A stretch of 64,000 bases of DNA from Haloarcula halobia (GTDB lineage: Archaea > Halobacteriota > Halobacteria > Halobacteriales > Haloarculaceae). This document shows, piece after piece, positions 12,320 to 52,130 of the stretch. The position numbers and the translations under genes are program-made. Below the pieces are notes generated by a model. That model ran no database searches and was not told the origin of the DNA. It saw only the letters and a list, made by a program, of their open reading frames with translations. Within the stretch, counting starts at the first letter, position 1. Each line of letters begins with the position of its first letter. The stretch covers positions 558,001 to 622,000 of the forward strand of contig NZ_CP119787.1 in NCBI RefSeq assembly GCF_029338255.1, read 5' to 3'.

Positions 12320-14023
12320 ATGTCACTCGACCCCATCGACACGTACAAGGGGCTGATACGGATCTCGATGGACCTCATCGGCGTTTCGGGCTCTATCAAA
12401 CGCAAGGTGCTGGCCGCTGTCGGCATCCAGCTCGGCGTCTCCATCGCGCTCGCGGCCGTCACGTTCGCGCTGTCGGGGACGCTCCAGCTCGTCCTCACCG
12501 CCGTGCTCCTCTCCGGTGCAGCCCTGGCGTTCGTGAACACGGTCTTTATCACCCGCGAGGACTTCGTCCGCCCCGTCGAGGCGCTGGACGAGGCCGCCGC
12601 CCAGATCGCCGCCGGCGAGATCGACGTCGACGTCCCCGACAGCGAACGGGACGACGAGGTGGCGAGTCTCACGGCCTCGTTCGCGTCGATGCAGTCCCAC
12701 CTCGAGACGGTCTCGCGGCAGGCCGACGCCCTCTCCCGCCAGGAGTTCGACGCCGACGTCTTAGACGAGGACGTCCCCGGGGACTTCGGGCGGTCGCTCG
12801 AGCGGATGGCCGCCAGTCTCGACGACTACACGACCGAACTCCAGGCGATGACCGACGACCTGGAGGCACGCTCACAGGCGCTGCGGGACCTCGTGACGGC
12901 CTTCGCGGAGGCGGCCGAGCGCGCGAAGGAGGGGGACCTCACCGCCACGCTCGACGACGACTTCGACGACGTCGACGAGGACCTGTTTCAGGCGGTCGTC
13001 GAGAACTACAACGACCTCGTGACGACGCTGGGCGAGACGGTCGGCGAGGTGACCGCCTTCGCCGAGGAGGTCTCCGGGACGACCGACCGGTTCGTCGAGA
13101 GCGTCGAGGAGATCGACCGCGCCAGCGACGAGGTCGCCCGGTCGATACAGGACATCTCCGCGGGGGCGAGCCAGCAGTCCGACCGCCACGACGACGTCGC
13201 CTCGGAGATGAACACCCTCTCTGCGACCGTCGAGGAGATCGCCGCGACCGCCGACGACGCGGCTCAGACCGCACAGCAGGCCGCCGAGCGGGGGCGGACC
13301 GGGCGCGAGGAGGCCGCCGTCGCCATCGACGAACTCGACGAGATGGAGGCCCGTATCGGGGAAATCGCCAGCGCGGTCGAGGGACTCGTCGACGAGGTCG
13401 GCGAGATCGACGAGATCGTCGACGTCATCACAGAGGTCGCAGAGCAGACCAACATGCTCGCGCTGAACGCCTCCATCGAGGCCGCCCGCGCCGACGCCTC
13501 CGGTGACGGCTTCGCCGTCGTCGCAGACGAGGTCAAGGCCCTGGCCGAGGAGACCCGTGACGCCGCTGCCGACATCTCTGACCGCATCCAGGCCGTCCAG
13601 GACGAGGCCACGCAGACGGTCACCGACGTCGAGGAGATGAACGAACGCGTCTCGGAGAGCACGGACACCATCGAGGGGGCGCTCCGCGACTTCGAGGACA
13701 TCGTGGACGTCCTGGGCGAGGTCAACGACGCCATCCAGGAGATATCCGGCGCGACCAGCGAGCAGGCAGAGACGACCCAGGAGGTCGTCGCGATGGTCGA
13801 CGAGGTAGCGACCGTGAGCGACCAGACCAGCAAGGAGGCCGAATCGGTCGCGGCCGCCACCCAAGAGCAGACCGCGACCATCGCCGAGGTCTCCGAGGAG
13901 GTGTCGTCGGTGGCGCGTCGGACCGACGAACTGCTGGACCTCCTCGCGCAGTTCGAGGTCGACGCGAGTGGCCAGGAGCGACCCGCGACGGACGCGACGG
14001 CCGCGCCCGGTGTCTCGGACTAG
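12320..14023 (+). CDS. Methyl-accepting transducer, two TM helices, no external domain
   Basis: 567 residues. Two hydrophobic helices (about 30-50 and 56-77) are joined by only a few residues, so there is no extracellular sensor. HAMP-like units follow ([11 protein letters not shown] near 95 and two more G-D/E-L patterns to about 235). The long cytoplasmic helical hairpin carries the hallmark tip [14 protein letters not shown]. It feeds the CheA/CheW pathway controlling the archaellum. The minimal-loop topology resembles transducers that partner with another membrane protein (as HtrI does with sensory rhodopsin I); no rhodopsin gene is adjacent. Glu/Gln pairs along the hairpin are potential methylation sites. 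Confidence 0.92.
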
Positions 14024-45342: not shown

Positions 45343-45771
45343 TCAGATCGAGACGGAGTCGTTGACTGCGTCCGGTTCGACCCAGATGACGAACCGCTCA
45401 CCGTCGCTGATGAGCCCGCTGATGTACGGACTCTCGGGTCCCGAATCGACGTCGGCGTCGTGAAGACTCCTGACGCGGTCGACCCGGTCTACGAGCCACC
45501 CGATGCGCTCCTCGCTGTCGAGGATGATGACCTGCTGGCTGTCCTGGTCCGAATAGGCGTCGAAGATGGACGTCGGATCCAGTATCGTCGTCGTCTCTCC
45601 ACGCAGGTCCATCACGCCCGCGACGCTCGGTGACGTGTTCGGCAGGGTCGTCATCTCCCCGGCTTTGACGATCTCTACGATGCGGTCGATGCCGAGACAG
45701 TACTGCTCGTCGCCGAGCGTGAACTCGAGGACCTGTTCCGGGCGCTGCGGGGCTGTGACAGCGCCCGTCAT
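45343..45771 (-). CDS. cheW: Chemotaxis adaptor CheW
   Basis: 142 residues. Two beta-barrel SH3-like subdomains: [24 protein letters not shown] and [14 protein letters not shown], the classic block linking receptor and CheA. The ATG overlaps the transducer stop (ATGA), showing that receptor and adaptor are made together, so this CheW may be dedicated to the neighbouring transducer. Confidence 0.95.
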
Positions 45772-48074
45772 TGCTCTGGCTCCGTGGTGTCTTCGAGTTC
45801 GGTGCCGACGTCTGACCCGCCGTCGGTTCCAGCGACCGAGAGGTCCGTTCCCGGTTCGAGGGTGTTCACCTCCGATTCACGCTCGGGGTCCGACTGCCCG
45901 GACCCGGTCGTCGCGCTCGTGGGCGTCGTTCGTGACGACGACGCTCCGGAGTGGACGCTCGCCCCGCCCACGTCGAAGTCCGCGACGTTGTCGTTGAGTT
46001 CTTCCGCGAGGCGGGAGAGCTGCTGGATGTTCGTGTTGGCCTCCGACAGTGACGAGGTCTGTTCTTCGGACGCGGCCGAGACGTTCGTCGCTTCGGCGGC
46101 GGTCTGCTGGCTGACACTCGACACCTCGTCGACCATCGAGACGACTTCCTCGGTGGAGGCCGCCTGGTCGTCGGTCGCTTCGCTTATCTCTTTGATTCCG
46201 CTCTCCGCCTGTTGGACCGCGTCGGCGATCTCGTCGAACATCGCGACGGCCTCTTCGATGGTCTCTGCACCCGTCTGGACGCGGGTACTCATCTCCTCGA
46301 TGTCGTCGACGGTGTCGCCGGTGGTCTCCTGGATCTCTTCGATGCGGTTCTCGATTTTCGTGGTCGCGTTGCCGGCTTCCTCGGCCAGTGACTTGATCTC
46401 CCCGGCCACGACACCGAAGCCCTCGCCTGCCTCGCCCGCCCGAGCGGCCTCGATGGAGGCGTTCAGCGCGAGCATGTTGGTCTGCTCGGCGATGTCGGAG
46501 ATCATCTCGACGATCTCGCCGATCTGGTCCATCTCCGCGTCGAGCGCTGCGACCTGCTCGGAGGCGTCGTCCGCCTGTGACTCGATCGCCGCTATCTCGC
46601 TGGTCGCCTCGGCGGCGTACTCCCGGCCGGTCTCGCCACGGTCGACGGCGGTGCTGGCGGTCGCAGAGACCTCTTCGGCCGAGGAGGCGATCTCCTCGAC
46701 AGTCGCGGACATGTCGTTCATCTCGCTGGCGACCGTCTGGAGTTTCTCGCTTTGCGCTTCGGCCCCCTGTGAGATCTCGGTCACTGACTCCGCGACGTCT
46801 TCGCTTGCGGCCTCGATCTCCTCGGCACTCGCAGACACCTGCTGGCTCGACCCGGCCACCTCGTCGCTAATCGCCTGCACGCTACTGACGCTCTCACGCA
46901 GTTGTTCGACGCCTTCTTCGAGGTTGGCCAGCACGTCGCCGTACTCGCCGGGGAAGTCCGTCTTGATGGTCTGGTCCAGCTGGCCGCGTTTGAGGTCGTT
47001 GCTCGCCGCCGAAATCTGCCCGAAGCTCTCCGAGAGGCGGTCGGTTCCGCGCTGGAAGTCCGCGAGTACCTCACCGTACTGGCCGGGCCGGTCGGCGTCG
47101 ATACGCTGGTCGAGCTGCCCGCTTCGTAACGCCTCGCTCGCCTTTTCTATCTCCCCGAAGCTGCCGGTGAGCTGGTCGGTCCCGCTGTCGAGACCGTCCA
47201 TAATCTCACCGTAGGTTCCGGGGTAGTCGGTCTCGATGTCCGCCTGGAGTCGCCCTGCCTCGAGGTTCTGGCTGACGTCGCGCATGTCCCCGAAGATGCC
47301 GGTCAGGTTCGTCTGCATATCGCGGAACGAACCGACCATCCGACCGATCTCGTCGTCGTACGCACGGTCCTGCATATCGGTGTCGAGGTCCCCGTCGCTG
47401 ATACTGGCGGCCGACTCCGCGAGCTGCTTCAGTGGCGGCGTGATGTGCCGGTTGAGCACGACCCCGATACCGACCGACATGACGAAGGCGATCAGCGTGA
47501 GGGCGACCATCTCCATCTGGGCCGTCTGGGTAGCACTATCGGCGAGGGCGACCTGCGCTTCCATGTCGGCCATCACCGTCTCCTCGAGCGTATGTGCCTG
47601 CTCTTCCATCTCGACTCGAAGCGTGCTCATCTCGGCCAGTTTCTGGGCGGCAAGCTCGTCGTTGCCGGCCTCTTTTGCCTCGAAGTATTCCTCGCCGAGG
47701 GCGTTGTACTCCTCGTGGGTCTCGACGAGCGCTTGCTTTTCGGCGATCGCCTCCTCTTGGTCGAGGTCTAGCGCCTGTTCGTATTCCTCGAAGTGTGCTG
47801 CCGCCTCGTCGTAGTCAGCGCGAGCGTCCGTCTCCCCGAGTTGGGCAGCCTGTACGGCGCTCTGTTGTTGCTCGACGGCGACGAGCATCTCCATTGCTCG
47901 GTCGACGTTCTGTCCTTCTTCGGCGATGTGGTGTGCCTCTCTGTCGAGTTCGCCGACGGCCATATATCCCAGCAGTCCCGTTCCTGCGACCAGCAACGCG
48001 ACGACGAGGAACGATGCGATGAGTTTCGTCCGTAGGTTCAGCCCGTCAAGGTGCAGTTTCTCCGATAGTCCCAT
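45768..48074 (-). CDS. Transducer with external domain and poly-HAMP array
   Basis: 768 residues from [14 protein letters not shown]1 about 17-40; an external helical domain (about 41-195, rich in E/A/Q, like a four-helix bundle); TM2 about 200-220; then HAMP ([19 protein letters not shown]) and three further HAMP-like repeats of the form G-x-L-x-x-x-I-x-x-D-x-P-G-x-Y-G. The signalling hairpin tip has [14 protein letters not shown]. It transmits ligand or partner signals to CheW/CheA. An upstream ATG at 48104 would add ten residues. 93 bp downstream of the LOV regulator gene on the same strand. Confidence 0.93.
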
Positions 48075-48167
48075 GTCTGTAACAGGAGTTGCGTACGGGT
48101 TCAATCCAGATGATAACCAGTTAACAACCCCCGAACGGGACGGGGTTAACCACGTAACCCCTCGTTC

Positions 48168-51100
48168 TCACTCGGCAGTTTCGGCCGCTGGCTCGAACAC
48201 CGCTTCGAGTACTCGCCGGTGTGCAGCCTGGAGGTGATTGTAGACCGCAGGACCCGAGATGCCGAAGCTCTCGGCGAGCTCTTCGCCCTTCACTCGCCGC
48301 GGTGTCTCGTAGTAGCCCCCGTAGAACGCCGCGTTGAGGATCTCGTACTGTCGCTCGGTCAGCAGGTCTTCGACCCGTGTCGCGTCCGGAACGGCCTGCG
48401 TGCGCCGCTGGCGCTTTGCCACGAGGTCGAGGTCGTCGTACCGCGAGGTCAGCGAATCGAGTATCGGCCGGTAGGCGACGTTCGCCGGCAGTTCCACCCG
48501 GAACGTCGTGCCGTCCGCGTCCGAGATGGCCTCGACCAGCGTTCCCCCGTGTTTGCTGACAACCGATTCGAGGAACGGCGTCCGGAGGCACAAGCTGAGC
48601 TGGTTGTGTTCGACAGCCCCGAACCACTCGGCTGCGTCGATACTGGTCATCGACGAGGCGTGCTCGAGTACCGTCGCTGCGTCACCGTCGACCACGGTCA
48701 CGAGGACGCGGACGGTGTCTCCCTCTCGTTCGGCGACGGTGTCGAACCGTATCGTGCTGTCGGTCGCCGCCGCGAGCCGTCGCAAGGGGAAGGCCTCGTC
48801 CCCGAGCGAAAACTCCAGTCCCGTGTGCATCTGCTGGCTGCCGGCCTGGCGCTGTTCGAGGATGCGGCTGTAGTTGACGACGAGCGACGCCACGTCGGCA
48901 AAGAGGTTCTCGTATATCCCGTCGAACGCCGCCTCGGTCTGCGAGTAGACGGTCAGGACGCCGTAGAGAACCTCGTCGTAGACGAGAGGGACACTCACGC
49001 CACTCCTGAACCCATACGAGAGTGCGTCTTTCGCCCAGGACTCCTCGAAGACACGACCGGAGATATTCGAGACCCCGTAGACGTCGTGTGTGTCTGCGGC
49101 CCGCTGGGCCGGAAGTGAGAGGTCGCCACTGTCGGTCAGCACCGAGTCGAGATAGCCGTCCGCATCGCCGGCCCAGGCCGACGGCGAGAGGTCGGTGTCT
49201 TCACCTGTGGGATGGCCGATCCACACGAAATCGATACGGTCCATCTCGAGCAGTTCGTCACACAACCCGGTCTCCAGTGCGTCTTGGCTGTCGCTGTCGG
49301 CGAGGCGGCGCTGTACCGCCTGGACGGAGTGGATGATGCTGTTTAGCTCCGCGATCCGGGACTGCTGGACCGACAGTTCCTCCGTAATCGCGGCGTGGAC
49401 GCTGTCGGTCCGGAGACGCTGGAACGCCGACTCCGCGTTCGCCGTCAGCACGTCGACGAGGTCGACGTCCACGTCGTCGAAACCCCGCTGGGAAGTCGTC
49501 ACGGCGATCATCACGCCGAAGTCGCCGACCGGCGCGACGAGCAACTGTGTGGTGGACGCGTCGAACTCGTCCCCGAGCGTATCGATTTCCGCCCGCGAAA
49601 ACAGCCGTGTCTCTCCCGCCCGGTACGACTCCCAGATCGGGTTCGAACCGGGCTCGACGCGACCCAGCGCACTGTCCGCGTCGAGGCCGGACACGGACCG
49701 AACAGTAGGCTCCAGCGCGCCGGTCTCTTCGTCGTACTGTTTGACACTCACGTGCTCTACGTCGAAGGCGTTCTCGGTGAACTCGACTAAGAACTCGCCG
49801 ATATCGTCCGGCGAGGTTGGTGGGTAGAACTCGCGTGTCGCGGTGTGGAGCTCCTCGAGGACGCGCTCTCGCTTTTCGAGTGCGTGTTCGCGACGCTTGC
49901 GGTCGGTGATGTCTGTCACGACACCGAGCATTCGCGCGCGCGCCCCACTGCCGTCCTCGGTGACGGTCCCGCGACCGTGGACCCATCGTTCGGCTTCGTC
50001 TGTCACGACTCTGTACTCGATGTCGAACCGCTCGTCTCGCTTCTGTGCCGTCCGCAATGCGTCCTTGACGACACGCCGGTCGTCCGGATGGATCGCCTCC
50101 AGATAGGTCTCGACGTTGTGTCGCCCCGACTCCAGGCCGTGCAGTTCTGCCGTCGTCCCGAACGTCGTGACGCTGTCGTCGTCGCCCAGCATCCAGATGC
50201 CGGTTTCGGTCTCCTCGAGTGCGACGTCGAGCACCTGGTTCATCTCCCGCAGCTCCCGCTCGCGATTCCGTTCTGCCGTGATATCCTGTGAGACACCCAT
50301 CGCGGCGAACACCTCGCCCTCGTCGTTGCGGATCGGGACGATGCGGAACTGGTAGGCCCGGTCACCGATCGTCTCCTCGAACACGCTCTGTTCGCCGTCG
50401 AACGCGGCGGCGTACCGGGGGACGAGTAGCTCGGCCAGGTCGGACGGGAGTGCGTCCTCGAGCGACTGTCCCCGTAGTTCCGATACGGTCAGTTCAGCGT
50501 CGTCGACGGGCGTCCCACCGACGGTGGTGTAGCGCAGTTCCTCGTCGACGAGTGTGACCGCCCCGTTCGGGAAGCTCTCGACCAGCGTCCGATAGCGGTT
50601 CCGGGACTCTTCGAGTTCCCGTTCCCGTTCTTTCCGCTCGGTGACGTCCTGCTGGAAGCCGACGTAGTTGACGAGCGACCCCGACTCGTCCCGGACGGGG
50701 GCGATGTCGAGCCGGTTCCAGAACTCCGTTCCGTCGCTCCGGTAGTTCCGGATTTCGACCGACACCGGCCGCTCTTCGTCGATCGCCGACCGCAGTTCGT
50801 CGACCGTCTCGGGGTCGGTGTCGTCACCCTGCAGGAACCGGCAGTTCCGGCCCAGTATCGCCGCAACGTCGTACCCGGACTGCTCGCAGAACTGCTGGTT
50901 CGCGTATATTATCGGGTTGTCCGCCCGGGATGGGTCGGTGATGGTCACCCCGACCGGTGCCTCGTCGAGCGCCCGGCTCTTCCATCGGAGCTCCTCCTCC
51001 CTGCGTTTGCGGTCGGTGACGTCCTGTGTCATCCCGATTGCCGTCCGAACGACACCGTCGTCGTCGTACACCGGGAGGGTTCGATGGACGAGGAGACGGC

Positions 51101-52130
51101 CTGCGACCTCCGTTTCGACGGTGACCTGCTCGCCGTCCAGGGCGGCCCGGTAGCTCTCGACGAACACGTCCCGGTCGCCTGCACTGACGTCGCCGACCTT
51201 CGTTCCAGTGACCGTCCGGGGCGTTTCGTCGAGCACGTCGAACAGTTTTCCACCCGCCAGCTGGTATCGAAGCTCCTCGTCGACGAGCGTGACGGCACCG
51301 TTGGGGAAGTTCTCGACCAGCGTCTCGTATCGGCGTTCCCGCTGGCGCTGGGCAGATACGTCGCGGGCCGTCACGATCGCCCTCGTCTCGCTCTCGACCT
51401 GTGTGCACTCGAAGCTGTAGGTCCGGCGGCCGGTCGACCGCTCCACCTGGAATTCGATGGTCACGGCGTTGTCGCCGTCCGTTCCGAGGACCGTCTCCAG
51501 CGCGCGCTCGAGACGGTCGGGAGCCGCCGCGTCCGGAAGCAGTGTCGCCAGCGACGAGTGGAGCGGCCGGCCGGTCATCGCCGACAGCGAACAGTCGGCC
51601 AGCTCCCGCGCGGCGGGGTTCGCGTACTCCACGTCAGTAGCTCCGTCGACGACGTAGACGGCGTCCTCGGTCGTCTCGACGATACTCCTGTACTGTTCGA
51701 GACGGTCCCTGGTCCGGTCGCCGGTCACGTCGACGTACTGTTCGAGCCGCCCGCCTTCGAGTTCGCCCGTCGCTATCGGGGTACTGTCGTATCGCAGCCA
51801 CCGCTCCGCGCGGTTCGCTGCCGGCAGCACGTGACAGTCGACCCCGTCTCCGGTTGCTGTCTCCGACCGGGGGAACTCCTCCGGCGCGTCGAGACACGGC
51901 AGCACGTACGAGTCGAGGAACTGCGACCGTTCCGTCCCGACGCCCGCCTCGCTCTCGAGTCCGAAAAATCGCCGCGCGCTCTCGTCGACCCACTGGACCG
52001 TCGCGTCCGGTCCGACGACGACGAGGCCGATGGGTGTGGCGTCTGCGAGTGACTCGACGACTGCAGGCTCGGTGGTCAGCCCACTCCCGGCGAGGGACGA
52101 CTGGTCCCCGACACCCCGGTCCGCACTCAT
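48168..52130 (-). CDS. LOV/PAS/GAF multi-sensor regulator with Bat-type HTH
   Basis: 1,320 residues. Order: PAS1 (25-140), PAS2 (143-262), PAS3 (266-377), PAS4 with LOV motif (385-505), PAS5 (510-625), PAS6 (630-750), GAF1 (765-905), GAF2 (935-1095), bacterio-opsin-activator region (1100-1220) and HTH (1255-1310; LLTERQYEILNAAFYGGYYE). PAS4 carries GRNCRFLQGDD with the photoactive Cys430 (codon 50841-50843), and matching Asn/Gln residues (YANQQF, NYRSDGTEFWNRL, YVGFQQD). This indicates a blue-light flavin sensor. PAS3 and PAS5 share FPNGAVTLVDEELRY, an internal duplication. TATA-like TTTTATACC about 60 bp upstream. Likely activates target genes in response to light and redox or small molecules. 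Confidence 0.93.
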   Translation of the reverse strand: MSADRGVGDQSSLAGSGLTTEPAVVESLADATPIGLVVVGPDATVQWVDESARRFFGLESEAGVGTERSQFLDSYVLPCLDAPEEFPRSETATGDGVDCHVLPAANRAERWLRYDSTPIATGELEGGRLEQYVDVTGDRTRDRLEQYRSIVETTEDAVYVVDGATDVEYANPAARELADCSLSAMTGRPLHSSLATLLPDAAAPDRLERALETVLGTDGDNAVTIEFQVERSTGRRTYSFECTQVESETRAIVTARDVSAQRQRERRYETLVENFPNGAVTLVDEELRYQLAGGKLFDVLDETPRTVTGTKVGDVSAGDRDVFVESYRAALDGEQVTVETEVAGRLLVHRTLPVYDDDGVVRTAIGMTQDVTDRKRREEELRWKSRALDEAPVGVTITDPSRADNPIIYANQQFCEQSGYDVAAILGRNCRFLQGDDTDPETVDELRSAIDEERPVSVEIRNYRSDGTEFWNRLDIAPVRDESGSLVNYVGFQQDVTERKERERELEESRNRYRTLVESFPNGAVTLVDEELRYTTVGGTPVDDAELTVSELRGQSLEDALPSDLAELLVPRYAAAFDGEQSVFEETIGDRAYQFRIVPIRNDEGEVFAAMGVSQDITAERNRERELREMNQVLDVALEETETGIWMLGDDDSVTTFGTTAELHGLESGRHNVETYLEAIHPDDRRVVKDALRTAQKRDERFDIEYRVVTDEAERWVHGRGTVTEDGSGARARMLGVVTDITDRKRREHALEKRERVLEELHTATREFYPPTSPDDIGEFLVEFTENAFDVEHVSVKQYDEETGALEPTVRSVSGLDADSALGRVEPGSNPIWESYRAGETRLFSRAEIDTLGDEFDASTTQLLVAPVGDFGVMIAVTTSQRGFDDVDVDLVDVLTANAESAFQRLRTDSVHAAITEELSVQQSRIAELNSIIHSVQAVQRRLADSDSQDALETGLCDELLEMDRIDFVWIGHPTGEDTDLSPSAWAGDADGYLDSVLTDSGDLSLPAQRAADTHDVYGVSNISGRVFEESWAKDALSYGFRSGVSVPLVYDEVLYGVLTVYSQTEAAFDGIYENLFADVASLVVNYSRILEQRQAGSQQMHTGLEFSLGDEAFPLRRLAAATDSTIRFDTVAEREGDTVRVLVTVVDGDAATVLEHASSMTSIDAAEWFGAVEHNQLSLCLRTPFLESVVSKHGGTLVEAISDADGTTFRVELPANVAYRPILDSLTSRYDDLDLVAKRQRRTQAVPDATRVEDLLTERQYEILNAAFYGGYYETPRRVKGEELAESFGISGPAVYNHLQAAHRRVLEAVFEPAAETAE

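Follow-up and report, generated by a model that had tools for sequence, protein, structure and literature searches.

Haloarchaeal LOV-HTH proteins with the formula (RR/GAF/PAS)+LOV+nPAS+kGAF+HTH have been reported previously (Losi et al. 2014, PMC4844311), and in the accessible part of that article they are presented as a protein class, for which neither a target gene nor an operator nor a conserved partner is named. A second related system is Bat of Halobacterium salinarum, which contains PAS, GAF and a C-terminal HTH, lacks the LOV cysteine and targets bop and pigment genes. Bat activates bop, for which an upstream activator sequence has been reported (PMC3184054, PMC2253796). Sensory rhodopsin-Htr pairs, in turn, are encoded by a photoreceptor gene that adjoins a transducer gene, and CheW2 of H. 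salinarum is an accessory CheW, encoded outside the main che cluster, with a proposed role in the tuning of particular receptors (Schlesner et al. 2012, PMC3579733).

The locus described here shares features with each of these systems. It is located in the window, that is, the whole stretch of 64,000 nucleotides that was analysed (positions 558001-622000 of a 3.48-Mb haloarchaeal genome in two contigs), and consists of three genes on the minus strand, from 52130 to 45343, which encode a regulator, a transducer and a CheW. Among named relatives, Salinibaculum sp. KK48 is the closest. The regulator follows the LOV-HTH formula and resembles Bat in its PAS, GAF and C-terminal HTH, as well as in the proposed light and low-oxygen input and the putative activator element upstream of a promoter. 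It differs from Bat in its extra PAS/GAF units, its canonical LOV domain, the sequence of its putative site and its predicted target, a chemoreceptor operon. As in the sensory rhodopsin-Htr pairs, the gene for a putative photoreceptor adjoins a transducer gene, but the receptor would here be a soluble DNA-binding protein expected to act via transcription rather than a membrane opsin that touches the transducer, and none of the four opsin genes of the genome is located at the locus. The CheW is similar to CheW2, but it is encoded together with a single transducer and under a predicted operator.

The regulator (P0001, 48168..52130 on the minus strand, 1,320 aa) has a full-length orthologue in KK48, to which it is 81% identical, and contains three PAS domains, the LOV domain, two more PAS domains, two GAF domains, BAT and HTH_10, in that order. 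The Pfam matches to the PAS repeats, to PAS_9 on the LOV domain (residues 393-498), to two GAF_2 domains, to BAT (PF15915, residues 1105-1243, 93.1 bits) and to HTH_10 (PF04967, residues 1257-1308, 62.2 bits) all exceeded the curated cut-offs, and the combination of GAF, BAT and HTH_10 places the protein in the Bat/HTH_10 family. The LOV domain covers residues ~386-505, with Cys430 as the adduct cysteine, and its best match among solved structures is the crystal structure of the YtvA LOV domain (2pr5, E=5.8e-37). In this alignment, the flavin-pocket positions are occupied by Cys430, Asn462, Asn472 and Gln493, and the domain thus has the GXNCRFLQ motif, the adduct cysteine and the flavin-contacting Asn/Asn/Gln by which a LOV domain is recognized in sequence. 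The regulator is a probable blue-light sensor with DNA-binding activity, as judged from these features. The initial annotation had described a canonical LOV domain with Cys430 and flavin-contacting Asn and Gln residues, five more PAS domains, two GAF domains and a Bat-type HTH, followed in order and on the same strand by a poly-HAMP transducer and an ATGA-coupled CheW, and this description agrees with the alignment to 2pr5, the Pfam matches and the positions of the open reading frames. The region upstream of the regulator gene itself contains TTTTATA both in the window and in KK48.

The transducer (P0002) was listed as an open reading frame at 45768-48104 on the minus strand with a TTG start at 48104. 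However, its true start is probably the ATG at 48074, eleven codons in, since the orthologues in an alignment of 16 sequences begin there, which gives a protein of 768 aa (45768..48074). It consists of a transmembrane helix, an outer four-helix bundle, a second transmembrane helix, one canonical HAMP domain followed by three HAMP-like PG-Y-G repeats, and an MCP signalling domain. The assignment to the Htr/MCP family is based on PF00672 and PF00015 in Pfam and on the long transmembrane helices in the AlphaFold2 model, in which the pLDDT is above 90 across most helices of the outer domain. A Foldseek search with the outer domain returned only generic four-helix-bundle sensors with E>0.001, matches from which a ligand cannot be named. 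The transducer contains no chromophore domain, and the model suggests that its stimulus is separate from light and perceived via its own four-helix outer domain. The CheW adaptor (45343..45771 on the minus strand, 142 aa; Pfam CheW PF01584, E=1.3e-23) has a start codon that overlaps the htr stop codon in the four bases ATGA. It is one of four CheW proteins in the genome, and the best of the other three is 48% identical to it. Since CheW2 of H. salinarum does not pull down CheA (PMC3579733), coupling between CheA and the receptor by this CheW cannot be assumed. A second transducer gene is present in the window at 12320-14023 on the plus strand; its 567-aa product shares 39% identity with P0002 in the HAMP/signalling region.

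To describe the gene linkage, we surveyed 146 genomes of the family for homologues of the regulator (E<=1e-120). A close homologue was present in 11 genomes, and in all 11 a transducer gene is located downstream on the same strand. A search of 392 genomes of the order with the 431 N-terminal residues of the transducer identified three further cassettes in another family, f4 (G357, G367 and G292). The regulator-transducer pair is thus kept in 14 genomes from two families, counts that overstate the independence of the cassettes, which are related to each other. CheW is the third gene in eight of them (the window, KK48, G022, G096, G045, G003, G004 and G070) and is missing from the other six. An all-against-all protein comparison of the 11 family cassettes showed that almost no other neighbour is conserved, and since the pair is kept amid otherwise different neighbours, the gene order goes beyond chance. 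The initial annotation had allowed for the genes not being linked in relatives; for the regulator and the transducer, the linkage holds. In G022, the two genes are 660 nt apart and separated by an unrelated gene for a ferredoxin (Fer2), and in G070 the gap is 216 nt and the regulator is retained next to a transducer of a different, soluble PAS type. The conserved core of the regulators is GAF-GAF-BAT-HTH_10, and the N-terminal set of sensors is variable. Ten of the 14 cassette regulators contain the LOV cysteine motif, while those in G045, G081, G070 and G357 lack the LOV domain. Judging by these sequences, light is therefore a frequent but not universal input, and blue light is not what defines the cassette.

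A side-by-side reading of the regulator-transducer junctions revealed the palindrome GGTTACGTGGTTAACC (GGTTA-N6-TAACC, 48144..48159), 69 nt 5' of the probable htr ATG. A weaker copy, TGTTAACTGGTTATCA (48111..48126), is located 33 bp downstream of the first site and 36 nt before the ATG, and we refer to the two as sites 1 and 2 of a predicted tandem operator. In an exact search of the whole 3.48-Mb genome, GGTTA-N6-TAACC occurred only once, at this junction. The same search in 14 genomes identified the exact palindrome at the junction in seven of the 11 family cassettes (the window and six others), all seven genomes being cassette genomes, while copies elsewhere amounted to 0-1 per genome, similar to a reversed control pattern. 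The junction of G357 carries the palindrome as well. The f4 cassettes were not used to define the motif, and two of them carry it with 10/10 (G357) and 9/10 (G292) matching positions.

Site 2 is located 32-33 bp from site 1 in 13 of the 14 cassettes, the exception being G110, which has no site pair of this geometry. A blind choice of the second-best site placed it 32-33 bp away in 10 of 13 junctions. In 13 cassettes, the distance from the end of the site to the transducer ATG is 67-82 nt for site 1 and 35-50 nt for site 2 (67-70 and 35-38 nt in 10 of them), with the longer distances of 79-82 and 47-50 nt in G045, G003 and G004, the transducers of which are only 41-44% identical to that of the window. 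The matches are weak in G045 (8/10), G070 (7/10) and G367 (6/10), and yet the spacing is kept. When each 130-nt junction was shuffled 2000 times, the observed match was reached by at most 13 shuffles in ten junctions, and by 88, 416, 931 and 1758 shuffles in G045, G110, G070 and G367, respectively. Taken individually, these four junctions are weak, and the single-site matches of G070 and G367 are not beyond shuffles. In G022, sites 1 and 2 precede the ATG by 67 and 35 nt, respectively, despite the 660-nt gap and the ferredoxin gene, whereas the stop codon of the regulator gene and site 1 overlap in G003 and G097. As these three genomes and G070 show, the sites track the start of the transducer gene rather than the end of the regulator gene. 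The tandem site is absent upstream of homologous transducers that lack a close Bat-like regulator.

A covariance model built for the tandem operator from sequence alone recovered only its training members, with no further site in the genome of the window at E<=0.1. G003, G004 and G097, relatives that had been left out, were not recovered by the model either, which is thus less sensitive than the exact pattern. Extra tandem pairs with 32/33-bp spacing were observed outside the junction in G022 (L084:12748-12795, flanked by an orphan gene of 229 aa and a PBP/ABC transporter operon) and in G096 (L186:6045-6093), and the regulator may therefore have other targets, and a wider regulon, in these two genomes. 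The bop-type upstream activator sequence, ACCNNACTAGTTNG, defines the bop regulon and not the protein family; a search for it gave three matches with two mismatches, fewer than expected by chance and none near the locus.

Downstream of site 2, the element TTGAACC (48098..48104 on the minus strand) is located ~30-24 nt before the ATG, where the TATA box would be placed if the mRNA is leaderless, and its TGA columns are conserved in an alignment anchored on site 2. There is no canonical TATA box at this position. By analogy with bop, tandem sites above a weak core promoter would be the layout expected of an activator-dependent promoter.

With a probability of roughly two in three, we consider the locus to be a self-contained regulator-receptor module, in which the Bat-like protein controls one dedicated receptor-adaptor operon. 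The Bat-like protein would sense blue light through a flavin-Cys430 adduct in its LOV domain, and the five other PAS and the two GAF domains would take up further cues, probably redox or small ligands. HTH_10 dimers would bind the two palindromic sites upstream of htr, which at a distance of 32-33 bp, or three helical turns, would lie on one face of the helix. Once bound, the regulator may, like Bat at bop, bring the basal transcription machinery to a promoter whose TATA box is poor, and the simplest account, again by analogy, is that it activates rather than represses htr-cheW. The output would be the quantity of one transducer and its own CheW, so that light or redox determines how strongly one receptor counts in the taxis array. 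What connects the genes is a predicted tandem operator in the DNA that precedes htr-cheW, and the locus is therefore probably linked to taxis through transcription rather than by direct phototaxis. The initial annotation had proposed that the locus joins blue light to both gene expression and taxis; the canonical LOV sequence, the Bat-like nature of the regulator and the linkage in relatives agree with the annotation, but a direct route from blue light to taxis is not supported, as the transducer lacks a chromophore domain and has an outer four-helix domain of its own. The LOV-HTH architecture itself is not new, since it was already reported from haloarchaea in 2014 (PMC4844311). The conserved pairing and its operator are the part for which we found no description in the open-access literature searched, which does not prove that there is none. 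More tentatively, and at slightly less than even odds, the cassettes may represent a recurrent archaeal module, in which a light/redox factor with essentially one target, an adjacent receptor-adaptor operon, acts through a dedicated tandem operator and illumination rewrites the choice of chemoreceptors. The predicted 49-bp operator and target operon make light input, DNA binding and output testable in a single construct. If the model is true, a slow control of the chemoreceptor array by light, exerted through transcription, would exist beside the known fast opsin-based phototaxis, and haloarchaeal genetics would gain a compact blue-light promoter.

An unlikely but serious alternative, which concerns only the input and is compatible with the operator model, is that the regulator chiefly senses redox state or oxygen, with the LOV domain as a flavin redox switch and light as a secondary cue. 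Bat of H. salinarum acts at low oxygen and in light, and its PAS lacks the LOV cysteine (PMC3184054, PMC4844311), and four of the 14 cassettes lack LOV. On the other hand, the protein in the window retains every residue needed to form the adduct, the motif cysteine is kept in the other LOV-bearing relatives, and a photocycle at high salt has been demonstrated for one haloarchaeal LOV domain (PMC12202551). We find it improbable that the operator serves another regulator, with the Bat-like protein acting elsewhere and the linkage reflecting shared physiology only, because the site is near-unique in each genome, accompanies the Bat-like regulator in two families and is missing where homologous transducers lack that regulator, while several transducers near another Bat-like regulator are preceded by a different element, GATACTCATCC-GTTATCTAGAGT.

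Still less credible is direct signalling, by which the LOV-Bat protein would also contact the transducer or CheW and blue light would affect taxis within seconds, like in the sensory rhodopsin-transducer pairs. The strict neighbourhood of the two genes is consistent with such a role, as are the LOV proteins, several of them histidine kinases, close to other transducers of the clade. However, Pfam identified neither a membrane, a HAMP nor a CheW-binding module in the regulator, and the lack of a contact module places this alternative low; the transducer carries an outer domain of its own, and it is the operator that stays constant. Furthermore, the genome contains many transducers and four rhodopsins, two of which are encoded directly next to other htr genes, so that opsin phototaxis has loci of its own. 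Finally, the palindrome is most improbably a terminator or RNA hairpin that ends the regulator gene, for although GGGGTTA-N6-TAACCCC could form a 7-bp stem directly after the stop codon, there is no T run, a second site follows at a fixed spacing, and in G022 and G070 the sites are distant from the regulator stop and keep their distance to htr.

The GATACTCATCC-GTTATCTAGAGT element is located before transducers of the same clade at L158, L161, L163, L172, L177 and L180, with a more distant gene of the BAT/HTH_10 type nearby at all of these loci but L158, which suggests that there is a second pairing of regulator and receptor, served by a separate operator. LOV-motif proteins, several of which are histidine kinases, are encoded within a few kb of the clade transducers at L158, L161, L170, L172, L174, L175 and L180, even where a close Bat-like regulator is absent.

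The genome of the window encodes at least four other LOV-motif proteins (at L100, L103, L105 and L106), two of which, at L100 and L103, have the sequence of histidine kinases. L100 (C1:887000-906000) is a second light/oxygen/taxis cluster, in which genes for a Bat-like multi-PAS protein, a globin-type transducer (HemAT-like, as judged by eye), a response regulator and the LOV histidine kinase are placed side by side; the HTH part of this Bat-like protein is apparently cut short or frameshifted. At L111:2077-4013, in the same genome, a gene for a ParA/MinD-like ATPase overlaps that of a 289-aa CheW with an N-terminal extension, and the two are possibly a pair that positions chemoreceptor arrays.
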